Virus record (IMG/VR): IMGVR_UViG_3300030294_000130
Coordinates: 1-30,057 of that record
Source of the DNA: a virus
Direction: 5' to 3' (one strand)
Length of the DNA: 30,057 bases
The notes under the pieces were generated by a model. That model saw nothing but the letters and a program-made list of their open reading frames with translations, had not been told where the DNA came from and did no database searches. The translations under genes and the position numbers were made by a program. This document shows, piece by piece, positions 13,938 to 28,927 of this stretch. How positions within the stretch are numbered: the stretch's first letter is position 1; the number at the start of each line of letters is the position of its first letter.

Positions 13938-14126
13938 TCAACCTCCGGTGTAAGCACAATCCGTATGAATAAATATATGCGTATTACGTTTTGTCTTTAC
14001 GTACTCAATATTTACATCAGATGTTCTTATTTGCTTCTTACATACTTGGCAATTGCATTCCCCCGGTAGATACTTCCATTCAGGGGATCCTTTTATTTCT
14101 TCTCCACTACTCGATTTCAATGGCAT
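13938..14126 (-). CDS. Hypothetical 62-aa protein with a Cys-x2-Cys motif
   Basis: An AGGAGG lies 7 bases before the ATG, which overlaps the end of the helicase gene by 20 bases. The short protein contains WKYLPGECNCQVCKKQIRTSD (cysteines in C-x-C-x2-C spacing) and a final HTDC. These could bind a zinc ion, as in small treble-clef-like phage proteins. No family is recognised. Its stop overlaps the ribosome site of the Myb/SANT-like gene, so the genes are translated together. Confidence 0.7.
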   Translation of the reverse strand: MPLKSSSGEEIKGSPEWKYLPGECNCQVCKKQIRTSDVNIEYVKTKRNTHIFIHTDCAYTGG

Positions 14127-15487
14127 ATCTAATCCTCCTTGCTTTTACTGCTTCTAATAATGCTGCTTGTCCAGCATCCTTTCTTTCAAGGGCTTTCATG
14201 ACATCCTCATCCACGGTACCTTCAGTTATCAGGTGATGAATAATTACTCCTTTTTGCTGCCCTTGTCTGTACAATCTTGCATTTGCTTGTTGATATAATT
14301 CCAGGCTCCAATTAAGTCCAAACCAAACAATTACATTGCCACCTGCTTGTATGTTAAGTCCATGTCCAACACTCGCTGGATGCGCTAACAGAAGTCTTAT
14401 TTTCCCTTCGTTCCAATCGCTTATGTCTTCAGAGGTTTCAAGTGTTCTTGGTTTCAATTCTTTAAAATGTTTCTTCAATCTGTCAAAGTCATGTCTGAAA
14501 TTATAAAACACAAGTACTGGATCCGGATTGAATTCCAGAATTTCTTCCAGGGCTTCAAGTTTTCGATCATGAATTTCAATCGATTTTCCATTACTGTCAT
14601 ATACAGCTCCATTGGCCATCTGCAGTAATTTGTTTGACACTGTTGCTGCAGTTAATGCAATTACACTGCTGTCTTCATCTATCTGCATGAGTTGTTCTTT
14701 TTCAAAGTCATCATATTTTTTCTTCTCAGATGCAGAAAGCTTAACGCTAATTACGTTATCAATTCTTTCAGGAAGTGTAAGATAATCAGTTGCAGACATG
14801 CTAATACATATATCTGATATTTTATTTTGTATTGCCTCTTCAGCTCCGGGCTTTAAATCCCAATCAAATACCGTATAACCATTTCGTCTGCCCGGTGTAA
14901 AATATCTTTCTCTAAATCCGGTAATTGTTTTACCCAGCCTTTCTCCCCGATCAAGTAAATATAGTTCTGGCCATAAATCAAGATATCCATTTGGTGCAGG
15001 CGTTCCTGTAAGCCCTATAACTCTTTTCACAAGGGGCATTATAACTTTAAGTGCTTTAAATCTTTGCGAACTGCTTGATTTAAAGCTGGATAATTCATCT
15101 ATAACTATCATGTCAAATGGCCATTTCTTTAATACCCTAAAATAATCAATCAACCATTTGACATTTTCTCTATTGATGGCATATATGTCTGAATCCGTTT
15201 CAAGCCCTTCGATTCTTTGCTTCTCGGTACCCAGTACTTTTGAAACTCTCATGTGCTTTGTGTGATCCCACTTAACTGATTCTTTACTCCAGGTATCTTC
15301 TGCCACACGTTTAGGTGCTATAACTAATACCTTTGAAACTTCAAAACTGTTAAACATCAATTCGTTAATAACGCTTAATGTAACAACAGTCTTACCCTAA
15401 GCCCATATCTAAGAAAATACCTGCTCTTGGGGTTTTAATAATAAAGTCATGTGCGGTTTTCTGATATTCATGTGGTTTAAATAACAT
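14107..15487 (-). pseudogene. SNF2-type DEAD/DEAH helicase, frameshifted inside the Walker A motif
   Basis: Two frames joined by one base would give a 459-residue phage SNF2-family helicase. The first frame starts at the ATG 15485-15487 (MLFKPHEYQKTAHDFII) and reaches FLDMGLG, then a TAA at 15394-15392. Omitting the T at 15394 continues as KTVVTLSVINEL and on to the stop at 14107. The later frame has motif II VIDELSSF, motif III GLTGTPAPNG and motif VI QANARLYRQGQQKG. Ordered SNF2 motifs and family-like length show the parent gene was intact. The extra base splits the P-loop GLG-KT. It may be a mutation, a sequencing error, or +1 recoding at GGG UAA (Gly slipping to GGU). Without the shift, only a protein lacking the P-loop is made (428 codons, or from TTG near 15360). 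Confidence 0.85.
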
Positions 15488-15941
15488 TGGGCTTTTTCAC
15501 CTCCTCGTCGTGTTTCTTGTGCCATCTTGCATGCTCTGCCTGATTTCTAAAAATCATCAAATTATCAGGATCATTATTTCTCTTTTTTCCATTGATGTGA
15601 TGAACTACCTCTCCGGGTAATAATTTTCTGCCTAATTTGTTTTCAGCATTTAACCTATGCGTATGTATTCCAAATGTTTTTTCATAAGATTTTCCTTCAC
15701 CCGTCCCTAGTCTTGCTATCCTCAACTTTGTCCTCGTTTCAAAAGTCATTCTTTCGGGATTCAATCTCTTATTCATTTCTGATACATCAGGTCTTTTATG
15801 GATAGGCCTGTCTTCAGGATTAAATCTCTTTGATCTATAATTAGCCAGACACTGACGGCTGCAAAAATTATTTACTTTAATCTGTGACTGGTATCGAAGA
15901 ATCGTTTTACTGCACCACAAACAATTAATCTTTATTTTCAT
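15477..15941 (-). CDS. HNH endonuclease, homing-type
   Basis: The 154-residue protein has an N-terminal zinc ribbon (INCLWCSK, then NFCSRQCLANY; cysteines at 7, 10, 27, 31) and basic NUMOD-like repeats (KRPDVSEMNKRLNPERMTFE). The C-terminal HNH core reads LLPGEVVHHINGKKRNNDPDNLMIF followed by HARWHKKH. The pattern is that of free-standing phage homing endonucleases. AAAGGAG is 7 bases before the ATG. It overlaps the VRR-NUC gene by 17 bases and the helicase gene by 11, so it is wedged between two genes that often adjoin in related phages (from memory). Confidence 0.88.
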   Translation of the reverse strand: MKIKINCLWCSKTILRYQSQIKVNNFCSRQCLANYRSKRFNPEDRPIHKRPDVSEMNKRLNPERMTFETRTKLRIARLGTGEGKSYEKTFGIHTHRLNAENKLGRKLLPGEVVHHINGKKRNNDPDNLMIFRNQAEHARWHKKHDEEVKKPNVI

Positions 15942-16230
15942 TCTTCAACTCCTTTACAAAATCCTTTGCTTGATCCATACCTTTCACAATTCTTACATCT
16001 GCTCCAAGCTTCCCGTATCTTTCCCTTTGCCACTTCTGAATATTGGAAAGACTTCCCCAAGTAGCTTTAAGCTCTACAAAGTATATCTTTCCATTCGGCA
16101 TCACTATCAACCTGTCTGGCACACCTGGATTAGCCGGACTTACAAACTTATCCGCTATTCCACCCATCAACTTTATTTGATTGACGAGCCATTCTTCTAT
16201 TTTTGATTCTGCGGTTTTATCTTTAACCAA
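15925..16230 (-). CDS. VRR-NUC domain nuclease
   Basis: The 101-residue protein is a minimal VRR-NUC (PD-(D/E)XK superfamily) nuclease. An N-terminal helix (ESKIEEWLVNQIKLMGG) is followed by GVPDRLIVMPNGKIYFVELKA, with the acidic residue Asp39 and the E53-L-K55 catalytic pair. SNIQKWQRERYGKLGADVRIV follows, where Gln65 fits the conserved Q. VRR-NUC proteins cut branched or flap DNA during replication or recombination. It starts with TTG 5 bases after AGAGG. It lies immediately beyond the putative origin and is followed by the HNH and helicase genes. Confidence 0.9.
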   Translation of the reverse strand: MVKDKTAESKIEEWLVNQIKLMGGIADKFVSPANPGVPDRLIVMPNGKIYFVELKATWGSLSNIQKWQRERYGKLGADVRIVKGMDQAKDFVKELKNENKD

Positions 16231-16311
16231 TTAATCCTCTCCTTTAGGGGTGTAACTAGAAACTGTCTCGCACGCGTATGGGCATATATTGCGCTTTCGT
16301 GCATTATTACG

Positions 16312-16526
16312 CGCTTTTATTTATATGTATCTATCCTATTATTATAAATATAAATATTAGTTACCTTAGTTACCTTTAGTAGTTTTAGTAAGCAAATTAC
16401 TGACTTTTTAATGGTAACCACAGTGGTAATTAATTTCGTAACTAATTATTAGTTACTTTGACACCGTTTTGGAATTTTAGTTACCCTTTAATTAGTTACC
16501 CCACTTAATTACCTTATTGAGTTACC
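16312..16526. other. Iteron cluster with AT-rich tract: putative phage replication origin
   Basis: The 283-bp gap between primase-helicase and VRR-NUC genes holds TTAGTTACC four times on the plus strand: 16357-16365, 16366-16374 (in tandem), 16477-16485 and 16492-16500. Near copies are TTAGTTACT (16449-16457), TTAATTACC (16505-16513) and TGAGTTACC (16518-16526). The inverted pair GTAACTAA/TTAGTTAC lies at 16438-16456, and TGGTAA occurs at 16412 and 16424. The last near copies run into the 3' end of the primase-helicase gene. An almost pure A/T stretch (about 16319-16356) adjoins the first tandem copies, as an unwinding element would. Initiator binding is inferred. Confidence 0.65.
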
Positions 16527-18925
16527 CTTCGCCAGCCTTTTGCTGCTCCATATTTATTAAATTTCTTTGCGCCTTGCATCTTTTCCCAAGTATTAATTTT
16601 TGCCATTATCGCGGCTATTTCATTTGAATCCTGACGTTTAAGCGAACCTAGATCCCTACCAAAACATTCGTTCCATATTTCAGCTACGCATATTCGCTCT
16701 CTTAAAATAGTTCCTATCTGCGTTTCAAATTCATCATTACGAATAAATGCCCTGCGTTCAAATACGCTTCTGGATATCCAATCTTCGGGAAGCAAGATAT
16801 TAAGATATTCTTCAACAAGACCTTCTCTTTCATCAGATTCCATGGCTTCACGTTGCTCCCATTCAGCCAACTTGGATAATTCCTTATCAATAAAGAGCTC
16901 TTCTCCCTGTTCGTATAAAAACTTGATTTCCGCCCAAATCTGAACAATATCATTAACAGTTAAATTCCATACTTTTTTGGCAGTACTTCCAGGTACCTTC
17001 ACTGGCCAAAATCTTCTATTTCCTGTTGTATCTCGTAAATAGCCATTTTCTGCATTTGTGGTGCCTATAAATATGCACTGTCTCATATGTGGGACAGTTC
17101 TACGCCCAAATGCAGCCCTATAGATGTCATTTTGCTTTGATAAGAATCCTTTTAATGTATCAACTTCTGCTTTCTTAAGTCCTGCTAGCTCACCTATTTC
17201 AATAACCCAATAGCCCTGTAATTTTTCAGCCGCAGTCTTATCCTTTGTATCATTTAAATGCAGGCTGTCAGAAAACCAGTCACCACCAAGCTTTGATATT
17301 AAAGTGCTCTTACCTATGCCTTGTGGACCATTTAAAACAAGCATGGTATCAAACTTGCACCCTGGGTGCATAACTCTTGCTATAGCACCACACAATGTCT
17401 TCCTAGTAACAGCTCTTACGTATTCATTGTCTGTTGCACCCAGGTAATCAATTAGCAGCGTATCGACTCTTTCCACGCCATCCCATTCAGGAAGATTTTC
17501 TAAATATTCTCTGATTGGATGGTATGATCTATCATCCGTAACTCTTGTAACGGCCACGTCATAATTGATTTTTGAAAAGGTACCGTAACATTCATCTATG
17601 TAACAAATGAGTTGTGCATCGTCTGCATCTCTCCAAAACTTACTTGGATGCTTCCATGGAATATTTCCTATTACTTCGAGTCCATCGCTAAGCTGATTAA
17701 AAACGATCCCTTTAAGTCTTTCATCATTTCTTAATATTAGAGTTAAATTTTTAAGATTATTTTCAAGAAATCCTCTATTGTTGTATTCCAGTTTTGCAAG
17801 CCAATTTTCATCTTCTTCGATATCAAACTCTTCTTTAGCATTACTTAATTTTTCCTGTCCCAGCGTAAGCTTTGTATTATCATCACCTTGTATTAATTCA
17901 AGCATGCCCTTGTAACTAGGTAGCTTTGTACCTTCTGTATCACCGGCAACGTCTTCATCTAGATCTGCAAACTTATGAAGCCTAACAAGATCAAATGCAT
18001 TACAAAGCTTTCCACTCGCTGGATCAGTACCGTGATTACTATAAGCAAACTTTTCATCTTCATAGATTACAAGCCCTGCAGCTGTTGAACCACCTGAATA
18101 TGTATAGCGCCCTGGTATATCACATTTAAGATATGCATCCGGAATAAATTGATCTATTGCTTCAGGTATTGAATAAGTTCTACAAAAGGCTCCAATGAGT
18201 CCTGATTTCAAACAAGGATCTCCTTGCTTATCTGCTAACTTCTTTCTGCTTACAGCTGCTCTTGATGATTCCGGCCAAAAGCTTGTATCCGTCCAATCCC
18301 CATATTTACTGAGTATTTTATCAGCATTCATAAAGGGATTTTCTAAATACTTATAATAATATTGTCCATCTGCGCTGCAGCTTGGCCAGTACATCAATCT
18401 ACTAGGTTGGTATGTAGTATCATCAAAATAATCGATACCTGTTTCACTCGCTATCATTCTTGCAATGGCTTCGTATTCATCTGCAGATACTTCTCTATCT
18501 AATGGAATAAGCAATCTAAATCTAGGTGTATCAAGGCTATGCTTGTGTGTACTGTAAACACAGCAAGCATAATCTGCTAACATCTCTAAGGCATCAAAGA
18601 AATCAATGGGTGCAAAGTCCAGATCTAATGTAATTATCTGTCTGCATTGCACATTACCAGCTTTTCTGTGACCGTTCTTTAATGCTCCGCCAACGTAACC
18701 ACCTACATCTTTGATCTTGTCCTGATCAGTCTTACTCATTTTCTTATATTCCTGATAGGTCTCAGGAGTTATTACAGGAGTAGCAAGTTTGGCTACCAGG
18801 TTAGACCAAAGCATCTTTTTATTTTTCCAACTCTTTTCAAATCTGCTTTTTCCAGTTGATATGGCTACCTGGCCATCGTATTTAAGTTTAATTTTATATT
18901 CTTCAAGGTTGGCAACTTCTTTCAA
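16514..18925 (-). CDS. Primase-helicase, VirE/VapE type
   Basis: The 803-residue protein joins two modules. The N-terminal part (about 90-180) has QIITLDLDF (D101, D103), YSTHKHSLDTPRFRLLIPL and SRLMYWPS, matching the hhDhD and sxH motifs of archaeo-eukaryotic-type primases. The C-terminal part (about 470-650) is a VirE-type P-loop ATPase with WDGVERVDTLLIDYLG, Walker A GPQGIGKST (533-541), YWVIEIGELAGLKKAEVD and FIGTTNAENGYLRDTTGNRRFWPV. It would unwind and prime the origin lying just downstream. The start is TTG, 7 bases after GGAGG. The C-terminus has another ~150 residues of helical content, perhaps DNA-binding (EIWNECFGRDLGSLKRQDSNEIA). Confidence 0.92.
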   Translation of the reverse strand: MKEVANLEEYKIKLKYDGQVAISTGKSRFEKSWKNKKMLWSNLVAKLATPVITPETYQEYKKMSKTDQDKIKDVGGYVGGALKNGHRKAGNVQCRQIITLDLDFAPIDFFDALEMLADYACCVYSTHKHSLDTPRFRLLIPLDREVSADEYEAIARMIASETGIDYFDDTTYQPSRLMYWPSCSADGQYYYKYLENPFMNADKILSKYGDWTDTSFWPESSRAAVSRKKLADKQGDPCLKSGLIGAFCRTYSIPEAIDQFIPDAYLKCDIPGRYTYSGGSTAAGLVIYEDEKFAYSNHGTDPASGKLCNAFDLVRLHKFADLDEDVAGDTEGTKLPSYKGMLELIQGDDNTKLTLGQEKLSNAKEEFDIEEDENWLAKLEYNNRGFLENNLKNLTLILRNDERLKGIVFNQLSDGLEVIGNIPWKHPSKFWRDADDAQLICYIDECYGTFSKINYDVAVTRVTDDRSYHPIREYLENLPEWDGVERVDTLLIDYLGATDNEYVRAVTRKTLCGAIARVMHPGCKFDTMLVLNGPQGIGKSTLISKLGGDWFSDSLHLNDTKDKTAAEKLQGYWVIEIGELAGLKKAEVDTLKGFLSKQNDIYRAAFGRRTVPHMRQCIFIGTTNAENGYLRDTTGNRRFWPVKVPGSTAKKVWNLTVNDIVQIWAEIKFLYEQGEELFIDKELSKLAEWEQREAMESDEREGLVEEYLNILLPEDWISRSVFERRAFIRNDEFETQIGTILRERICVAEIWNECFGRDLGSLKRQDSNEIAAIMAKINTWEKMQGAKKFNKYGAAKGWRRVTQ

Positions 18926-26285: not shown

Positions 26286-26313
26286 AAATCACTCTCCTTC
26301 CTTATATGTTAAA

Positions 26314-26331
26314 AGTGTCTTATACGACACT
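26314..26331. promoter_or_regulatory. Operator copy 1, at the leftward promoter start
   Basis: AGTGTCTTATACGACACT is an 18-bp palindrome with perfect 6-bp arms (AGTGTC/GACACT). It lies just downstream of the -10 of the leftward promoter, over the expected start. Single GACACT half-sites lie at 26372-26377 and 26413-26418, the latter inside the spacer of the rightward promoter. The copy at 26048-26063 shares 15 of 16 bases. Confidence 0.75.
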
Positions 26332-26334
26332 GTC

Positions 26335-26363
26335 ATAATATCATTTATTTTGTCGATTGTCAA
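26335..26363 (-). promoter_or_regulatory. Leftward early (lytic) promoter
   Basis: On the minus strand TTGACA (26363-26358), a 17-base spacer and TATTAT (26340-26335) give a near-consensus promoter reading into the Cro-like gene. Operator copy 1 begins 4 bases after the -10. Confidence 0.8.
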
Positions 26364-26402
26364 CACTAAAAGACACTTTTTTCAATATTTACAATATTTT
26401 AG

Positions 26403-26431
26403 TTGCATAAATGACACTTTAATTATATAAT
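26403..26431 (+). promoter_or_regulatory. Rightward repressor promoter
   Basis: TTGCAT (26403-26408), a 17-base spacer and a perfect TATAAT (26426-26431) lead to the repressor ATG at 26463. A GACACT half-site at 26413-26418 lies in the spacer, allowing repressor or Cro to control it. Confidence 0.75.
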
Positions 26432-27613: not shown

Positions 27614-28798
27614 ATGAGAGGATCTATTTATTTAAAGAAAACTAATAAGAAATATTACCCTTATATCTATGATAAGGAAACAAATAAAAAGAAATGGGGT
27701 ACTGGGCATACCAATAAACGCGATGCAGAAACAGAGTTAAGAAAAATGTTATCTGCTTATGATGATGATAGCCTTGTCTTTGGCCGAGCTGAAAGATATA
27801 AAACAATATTAGACCAATTTATTAATATAGTTATTCCTGAAAAGTATAAATCTGAGACAGAAAGAAAGTCTTGTGAATGCATGTTAAAAAAACACACACA
27901 AGGTTTTTATAAAATTCGTATCGATAAAATCAGCACCAAAGACATCCAGCGACTATTACACACAATGCGTATTTATAAAAGTAAAGATAAACCCGAAGAG
28001 ATTCCAACCGCTGCTACAAAAAAGAAATTATATAATTATCTTAATGCGCTATTTAAAACTGCCGATGAATGGGGATTGATATCACAAAACCCTTGTACCG
28101 GAATAACTTTAAAATCTGCTTCTATCGAAACACCCGATACGTGGGAAAGCGAAGATGTTAACTATTTTCTTACCATTGATTATGTAATGCAATCAGAATG
28201 TTATTTAGGCTTCTTAATTATGGCCACAACTGGAATATCAAGAAGTGAAGCATGCGGATTGCAGTGGAAAGATTTTAGGGGAGATTATTTTCTTCTGGAG
28301 CAAGGTAAGGACATCTATATGAATGAAACTAATCTCAAGACATCATTTAGAAGACGTAAGGTTGAACTAATGCCCGTGGTCCGTACAGTAATTGAAGCGC
28401 ATAAAGAAAGACAGGACATAATCAGAAAGATGCTTGTATCTGCGCCTGATATAAATATTTGGATACTTACAGATAATTTCAATCAACCAATGCATCCTGA
28501 TAGATATACTAAGACATTCAAAAAATATTTGGTTAGAAATAATAAAGCTAGTTCAAGACTACTTCCTGTAATACCACTCAAGAATCTTCGACACACGTTT
28601 GCGACATTATTGATCAATGATGATGTAAATATTAAAATTGTACAAGAGGCACTTGGGCATTCTAAGGCGTCTACCACACAAAACTTTTACCAGGGTGCTG
28701 CGCAGAAAACAATGCACAGGTCTGCAGTTCTTAATCTACAAAATGCTATTTTTAATAAATCGGTAGAAAAATCGGTAGAAAAAGAAAAAAATGCATAA
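27614..28798 (+). CDS. int: Tyrosine-type site-specific integrase
   Basis: The 394-residue phage integrase has an N-terminal arm-type binding segment (MRGSIYLKKTNKKYYPYIYD, then KKKWGTGHTNKRDAETELRKML) and a core-binding domain (about 60-160). The catalytic domain has Arg210 (ATTGISRSEACGLQW), Lys242 (LKTSFRRRKVEL), Arg326 (PLKNLRHTFATLL), His349 (ALGHSKASTTQNFY) and the nucleophile Tyr359. At the box II His position of HxxR the residue is Lys323. The C-terminus has a SVEKSVEKEK repeat. Its gene ends 58 bases from tRNA-Gly, the likely attachment gene. AGGAAGG lies before the ATG; the -35/-10 are not clear. Confidence 0.93.
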   Translation: MRGSIYLKKTNKKYYPYIYDKETNKKKWGTGHTNKRDAETELRKMLSAYDDDSLVFGRAERYKTILDQFINIVIPEKYKSETERKSCECMLKKHTQGFYKIRIDKISTKDIQRLLHTMRIYKSKDKPEEIPTAATKKKLYNYLNALFKTADEWGLISQNPCTGITLKSASIETPDTWESEDVNYFLTIDYVMQSECYLGFLIMATTGISRSEACGLQWKDFRGDYFLLEQGKDIYMNETNLKTSFRRRKVELMPVVRTVIEAHKERQDIIRKMLVSAPDINIWILTDNFNQPMHPDRYTKTFKKYLVRNNKASSRLLPVIPLKNLRHTFATLLINDDVNIKIVQEALGHSKASTTQNFYQGAAQKTMHRSAVLNLQNAIFNKSVEKSVEKEKNA

Positions 28799-28855: not shown

Positions 28856-28927
28856 AGCGCGAGACGGGAATCGGACCCGCGACCCTCTCCTTGGCAAGGA
28901 GATGCTCTACCGCTGAGCCACTCGCGC
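28856..28927 (-). tRNA. tRNA-Gly (anticodon GCC), likely attachment gene
   Basis: The minus strand folds as a tRNA: acceptor GCGCGAG/CTCGCGC (7 bp), D arm GCTC-AGCGGTA-GAGC, anticodon arm TCTCC-TTGCCAA-GGAGA with anticodon GCC at 28895-28893, T arm GCGGG-TCCGATT-CCCGT, and U73 as the discriminator base, usual for bacterial tRNA-Gly. No CCA is encoded. Its 3' end faces the prophage, so the attachment core probably lies in the 3' half and the integrated phage restored the gene. The T-loop starts TCC rather than the usual TTC. Confidence 0.93.

Follow-up and report, generated by a model that had tools for sequence, protein, structure and literature searches.

The window, meaning the whole stretch of DNA that we analysed, is an IMG/VR virus record of 30,057 bases. 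It encodes terminase large subunit, portal, major head, minor head, neck and major tail proteins, along with a replication module, an integrase and a tRNA gene. The element is a temperate phage or prophage. It is not a satellite of the SaPI/PICI kind, which would have no full structural gene set and would depend on a helper. The tRNA gene (28856-28927) adjoins the integrase gene and probably serves as the prophage attachment site. A tandem 12-bp repeat, AAATCGGTAGAA (28757-28783), at the 3' end of the integrase gene encodes KSVEKSVEK. We also observed copies of AAGTGTC/GACACTT at 26313-26418, in the divergent region between HTH genes, and these are probable repressor operators of the lysogeny switch.

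A gap at 16231-16513 separates two genes on the minus strand. The gene at 16514-18925 encodes a VapE-family primase-helicase of 803 aa, which is the proposed origin-binding initiator, and its stop codon lies at 16514-16516. On the other side lies a VRR-NUC-like nuclease gene (15925-16230; phrog_93) that closes the gap on this side in most relatives (a homolog was present in 109 of 121 loci). A family-A polymerase and a Gp2.5-like ssDNA-binding protein are also encoded by the phage near the putative origin. An HNH endonuclease gene (15477-15941) is situated between the VRR-NUC gene and a helicase gene; it is probably a mobile insertion, since only 13 of 121 loci had a homolog. The reading frame of this SNF2-type helicase (14107-15470) is broken at the Walker A motif, with the N-terminal part in another frame, and this may be a real break, an assembly error or frameshifting.

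An earlier note on this DNA had described a short repeat, TTAGTTACC, occurring exactly four times, two of them in tandem. We located these four copies at 16357 and 16366 (the tandem pair), 16477 and 16492. The iteron is 9-10 bp long, and TTAGTTACC reads GGTAACTAA in the direction of the gene. At full length, the tandem pair adjoining the A/T tract reads TTAGTTACCT (16357-16366 and 16366-16375) and the other two exact copies read TTAGTTACCC (16477-16486 and 16492-16501), all on the plus strand. The three near copies that had been noted are also on this strand: TTAGTTACTT at 16449-16458 (near copy TTAGTTACT, from 16449), TTAATTACCT at 16505-16514 (near copy TTAATTACC, from 16505) and TGAGTTACCC at 16518-16527 (near copy TGAGTTACC, from 16518). 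Three inverted copies are on the minus strand, namely GTGGTTACCA at 16412-16421, TTAATTACCA at 16424-16433 and TTAGTTACGA at 16436-16445. The inverted pair GTAACTAAT/ATTAGTTAC was found at 16438-16456, and TGGTAA occurs twice near 16411-16429. The last near copies had been thought to enter the 3' end of the primase-helicase gene; this is true of the copy at 16518-16526 and of none of the others. The listed copies were thus all present, and two had been missed: GTGGTTACCA and a minus-strand copy, CTAGTTACAC, at 16250-16259. The latter lies beyond the A/T tract, by the start of the VRR-NUC gene, and therefore iterons flank the tract, with ten copies on one side and one on the other.

As a total over the 30 kb, matches to TTAGTTACC at one mismatch or less were unremarkable (11 found, 7.7 expected). 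Nine of the 11 fall within the 170 bp at 16357-16526, where about 0.04 would be expected. An independent two-strand motif search found 11 copies with a score of 78, the maximum in 532 coding windows being 55. The strongest repeated 6-mer of the whole record was likewise in the 400-bp window starting at 16251.

The A/T tract at 16314-16363 is the proposed unwinding element. By nearest-neighbour energies, no other 50 bp of the record is less stable, and it flanks the first copies as previously described. A further element, which we call the CG box, is located at 16258-16289 (family consensus near TATACGCGCGTATAGGGATTTTT); it matches on both strands, and the three best matches of the window are all within this segment. 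In the relatives, the box is about 190 bp past the primase-helicase stop, and it exceeded 99% of the null in 117 of 136 loci. Its core is an alternating pyrimidine-purine palindrome that is kept while the iteron word changes, and because of this the box is probably recognised by something unchanging, be it an invariant portion of the initiator, a host factor or the structure of the DNA itself.

We also looked for other signals. No promoter-like site was found in 15800-16900 (3.5 expected in shuffles), and no terminator-like site in the gap region. A DnaA box (TTWTNCACA, at one mismatch or less) was absent between 15687 and 17364, which does not fit a DnaA-dependent iteron plasmid origin. The GC-skew check proposed earlier was uninformative. 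Over the whole window there was no inflection at 16.3 kb, and the only clear switch was near 26.5 kb; as this coincides with a change of gene direction, the skew neither supports nor refutes an origin.

Searches with the primase-helicase yielded 231 loci in which its C-terminal part is encoded; of these, 136 differ from one another in the sequence of the gap. By motif search, the gap had a repeat cluster above 95% of the null (coding windows from the same loci) in 119 of the 136, and above 99% in 109; the remaining 17 did not exceed the null. Whole-locus and whole-genome scans, with intergenic DNA included, agreed with this result. An initial 112 loci were scanned for over-represented 6-mers, and in 85 of them the strongest one of the whole locus fell in the 400-bp window that follows the gene. 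In 115 of the 119 relatives the A/T tract ranked within the 1% of the locus with the lowest stability, as did 7 of 355 coding windows; its median position was 125 bp past the stop codon. At least two iterons before the tract and at least one after it were seen in 115 of 119, and a close pair stood at the position of the tandem pair in 93 of 119. Three loci (L019, L021 and L113) had no clear iteron cluster after the gene; here the origin may have moved, or the word may be degenerate.

The layout recurs in phage isolates of Staphylococcus, Enterococcus, Clostridioides, Corynebacterium, Gardnerella, Streptococcus and Acutalibacter, each with a word of its own, and the hosts of the relatives that have it belong to two bacterial phyla. 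When the complete phages phiFL4A, Fontainebleau and IPLA35 were taken whole, the gap was the top repeat window of the genome. In IPLA35 it was not the least stable part of the genome (stability rank 3915).

The repeat word itself varied from phage to phage. Among the words in relatives were GGAACA, GTAAC, GGCAAC, GTGACAA, TAAACAAG, GCAATTA, GGATAC, GGAACAAG, GTGACAAC and GATGCAACA. When aligned, most share the frame G-N-N-A-(A)-C-A and vary chiefly in its 5' part. The word of the window was found only in its nearest relatives, L002 and L022 (GTAAC with similar flanks), and the record of L002 had no close pair of exact GTAACTAA. A search of all viral contigs for such pairs was discarded, the pattern being too short and the matches listed mostly chance. 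The earlier note had taken non-conservation of the repeat in relatives as grounds for refuting an origin. Taken literally, this criterion would mislead, since what nearly all relatives retain at this position is a cluster whose sequence varies, the word itself being kept only in L002 and L022.

On the tree of the protein core, we counted at least 38 changes of word class over 115 tips (about 60 for shuffled labels), and 20 when limited to the larger classes (at least 4 members); some of the small classes may be noise of motif finding. Two phages of one IMG genome (2829729602), L073 and L177, differ in their words (TAAACAAG and GGAACA); this is compatible with avoidance of cross-talk but no demonstration of it. 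Where iterons enter the 3' end of the gene, they translate as VP, VT or VA repeats in the protein tail. Such tails were seen in L062 (VAEVAEVAEVA), L054, L105 and others.

We further examined the primase-helicase, which matches PF05272 (6.5e-78) and also phrog_256. In the model, an AEP primase is followed by a VapE helicase and a winged helix. The N-terminal model (pLDDT 92) matches the PrimPol of cyanophage S-2L (6zp9, Z 10.0). The helicase part matches the SaPI Rep protein (7PDS) by sequence, with phmmer at 1.6e-75 and with a profile at 1e-102. The C-terminal winged-helix part (about aa 698-803; 16517-16834, minus strand), with its wing strands at about aa 780-800, was modelled by AF2 with a pLDDT of 87.7. 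With this model, 7PDS was first in Foldseek (E 2.7e-6), and VIA-align gave a Z of 12.6 (rmsd 3.5, 106 aligned), the next entry being at 6.0. The primase-helicase is therefore related to the self-loading Rep helicase of SaPIs, and this was observed in both sequence and fold. By family homology, the initiator would be a self-loading AAA+ helicase of the VapE/Rep type.

If this protein reads the iterons, the word should be expected to go with its C-terminus. The nearest neighbour by C-terminus predicted the word better than the nearest neighbour by core (p 2e-6 below 70% identity) or by VRR-NUC (p 3e-5 and 1e-3). With no limit on identity, the plain comparison with the core gave the C-terminus no advantage (p 0.87), since near relatives have everything in common; the effect emerged once identity was below 80%. 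For disjoint pairs with no such limit, the tail gave a significant result and the whole C-terminus did not (p 0.17). Among tree-independent pairs, wing residue 794 was the first of 519 columns, 785 and 797 being among the first five, and residue 795 ranked first by mutual information with the iteron word. The other of the two tree-independent pair tests, of GTAAC/GGCAA words against residue 795, was not significant (9 pairs). An example is given by L078 and L127 compared with L139 and L158, where the cores are 84-86% identical, the words differ, and the wings are only 44% identical. Overall, the word agrees better with the C-terminal winged helix than with the remainder of the protein or the nuclease next to it, and this observed association is moderate (partial r about 0.3-0.5, among related sequences that are not independent). 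Several windows of the core scored nearly as high as the C-terminus, or higher, in single settings. With an effect of this size and these rival windows, the association points to the wing and does not prove it.

Two candidate binders had been suggested earlier. The primase-helicase is the better supported, as the word tracks its C-terminus and it is homologous to SaPI Rep. The Myb/SANT-like protein did not hold up as a general binder: among the 121 loci with enough flank, a homolog was seen in one, which is the window itself, and in no relative tested.

Taken together, we consider it highly probable that 16250-16527 is the replication origin of this phage, with about 11 iterons and an A/T tract, to which the primase-helicase binds through its winged helix before opening the strands and priming. 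The iteron-type origin with an unwinding element proposed earlier is, in the light of the conserved cluster, its A/T tract and the homology to SaPI Rep, the best-supported reading. We infer the following course of events. The primase-helicase, encoded directly upstream in the direction of the gene, would bind the iterons by its C-terminal winged helix, form a helicase ring at the A/T tract and melt it. The N-terminal AEP domain would then prime, and the phage family-A polymerase and the Gp2.5-like ssDNA-binding protein would extend.

The repeats could instead serve the copy-number control or incompatibility of the phage, the primase-helicase binding them as at the crr of satellite P4 and the strands opening at another site. 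P4 does have two iteron regions, ori and crr, and eleven copies could titrate an initiator. However, the word forms no other cluster in the window, the gap ranks first for repeats in the three whole phage genomes, and the cluster itself carries the tract of lowest stability, so that we give this possibility little weight. An operator array, on which a transcription factor would control the downstream VRR-NUC and helicase genes with replication starting elsewhere, might be suspected from the copy that adjoins the VRR-NUC gene start and from the HTH and Myb-like proteins that the phage encodes. Such an array appears very unlikely, as the region has no promoter-like site and most copies are by the 3' end of the primase-helicase gene, one of them running into it. 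The tie of the cluster to the A/T tract in 115 of 119 relatives, the tracking of the primase-helicase C-terminus by the word, and the lack of a Myb homolog in any relative tested also argue against it.

A neutral minisatellite, or a recombination scar at the module boundary, would have no function; words that differ between phages, and copies that are partly in tandem, are what it might leave. It would hardly be kept at the same place with an A/T tract in 115 of 119 relatives from two phyla, have copies in both orientations and on both sides of the tract, and have a word that correlates with a protein domain. We attach practically no likelihood to it. The reading that fits best is an iteron origin of the SaPI/PICI type, here in complete phages, to which the phage's own primase-helicase would bind.

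To our knowledge, the origins of most temperate Gram-positive phages are unmapped, and in the literature that we searched, with partial coverage, no description of these phage origins was found. With the present layout, sequence alone is enough to locate an origin and its probable initiator in more than 100 phages, and this type of origin appears widespread in complete phages. As changed words occur with changed wing residues, the specificity between initiator and origin is directly testable by swaps. A broader proposal, which we put forward tentatively and with somewhat more doubt than confidence, is that many temperate phages of Bacillota and Actinomycetota, as one large group, share one chassis (the A/T tract and the CG box, at fixed places) in which only the word and the initiator wing change together. 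They would have done so many times, as a readable protein-DNA code that allows re-pairing of origin and initiator, and this may limit cross-replication of co-resident prophages.

When compared with known systems, the locus resembles the origins of iteron plasmids and of lambda O, in which several short repeats stand by an A/T-rich unwinding element and are bound by a cognate initiator. Those origins rely on host DnaA and/or on loading of DnaB, whereas here there is no DnaA box and the helicase is within the initiator. The alpha protein of P4 combines primase, helicase and C-terminal origin-binding parts in one polypeptide, and its type I iterons are 9-bp. The present protein, as judged by homology and fold, has the same three parts fused, and the iterons here are also 9-bp. 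In P4, ori and crr are separate iteron regions; here a single cluster is located by the gene, and the likeness drawn is one of architecture. In the SCCmec element, the Cch2 helicase uses its C-terminal domain to bind direct repeats that closely follow its gene (PMC7581432). The pairing of a helicase C-terminus with repeats at this position is shared by Cch2 and its putative origin; that helicase is of another family, with only three 5-bp iterons and a separate polymerase-primase.

The closest likeness is to the Rep-ori systems of SaPI/PICI elements (SaPI Rep, 7PDS; SaPI5 PriRep). SaPI origins sit 3' of rep, and the C-terminal domain of Rep reads the iterons (PMC7581432, PMC6092414). Shared features are the position of the origin, directly past the 3' end of the initiator gene, an A/T-rich region with iterons to either side, and a homologous VapE-type helicase with a matching C-terminal winged helix. 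The present loci differ in belonging to complete phages with head, tail and terminase genes and not to satellites, in the uneven split of the copies (10 and 1), and in having an extra conserved CG box and a phage family-A polymerase and SSB nearby. The kind of origin is thus already known from the SaPI/PICI and P4-like initiator-iteron origins. What appears to be new, in the literature searched, is how generally it occurs among the complete temperate phages of a large group, on a common chassis and with many words.
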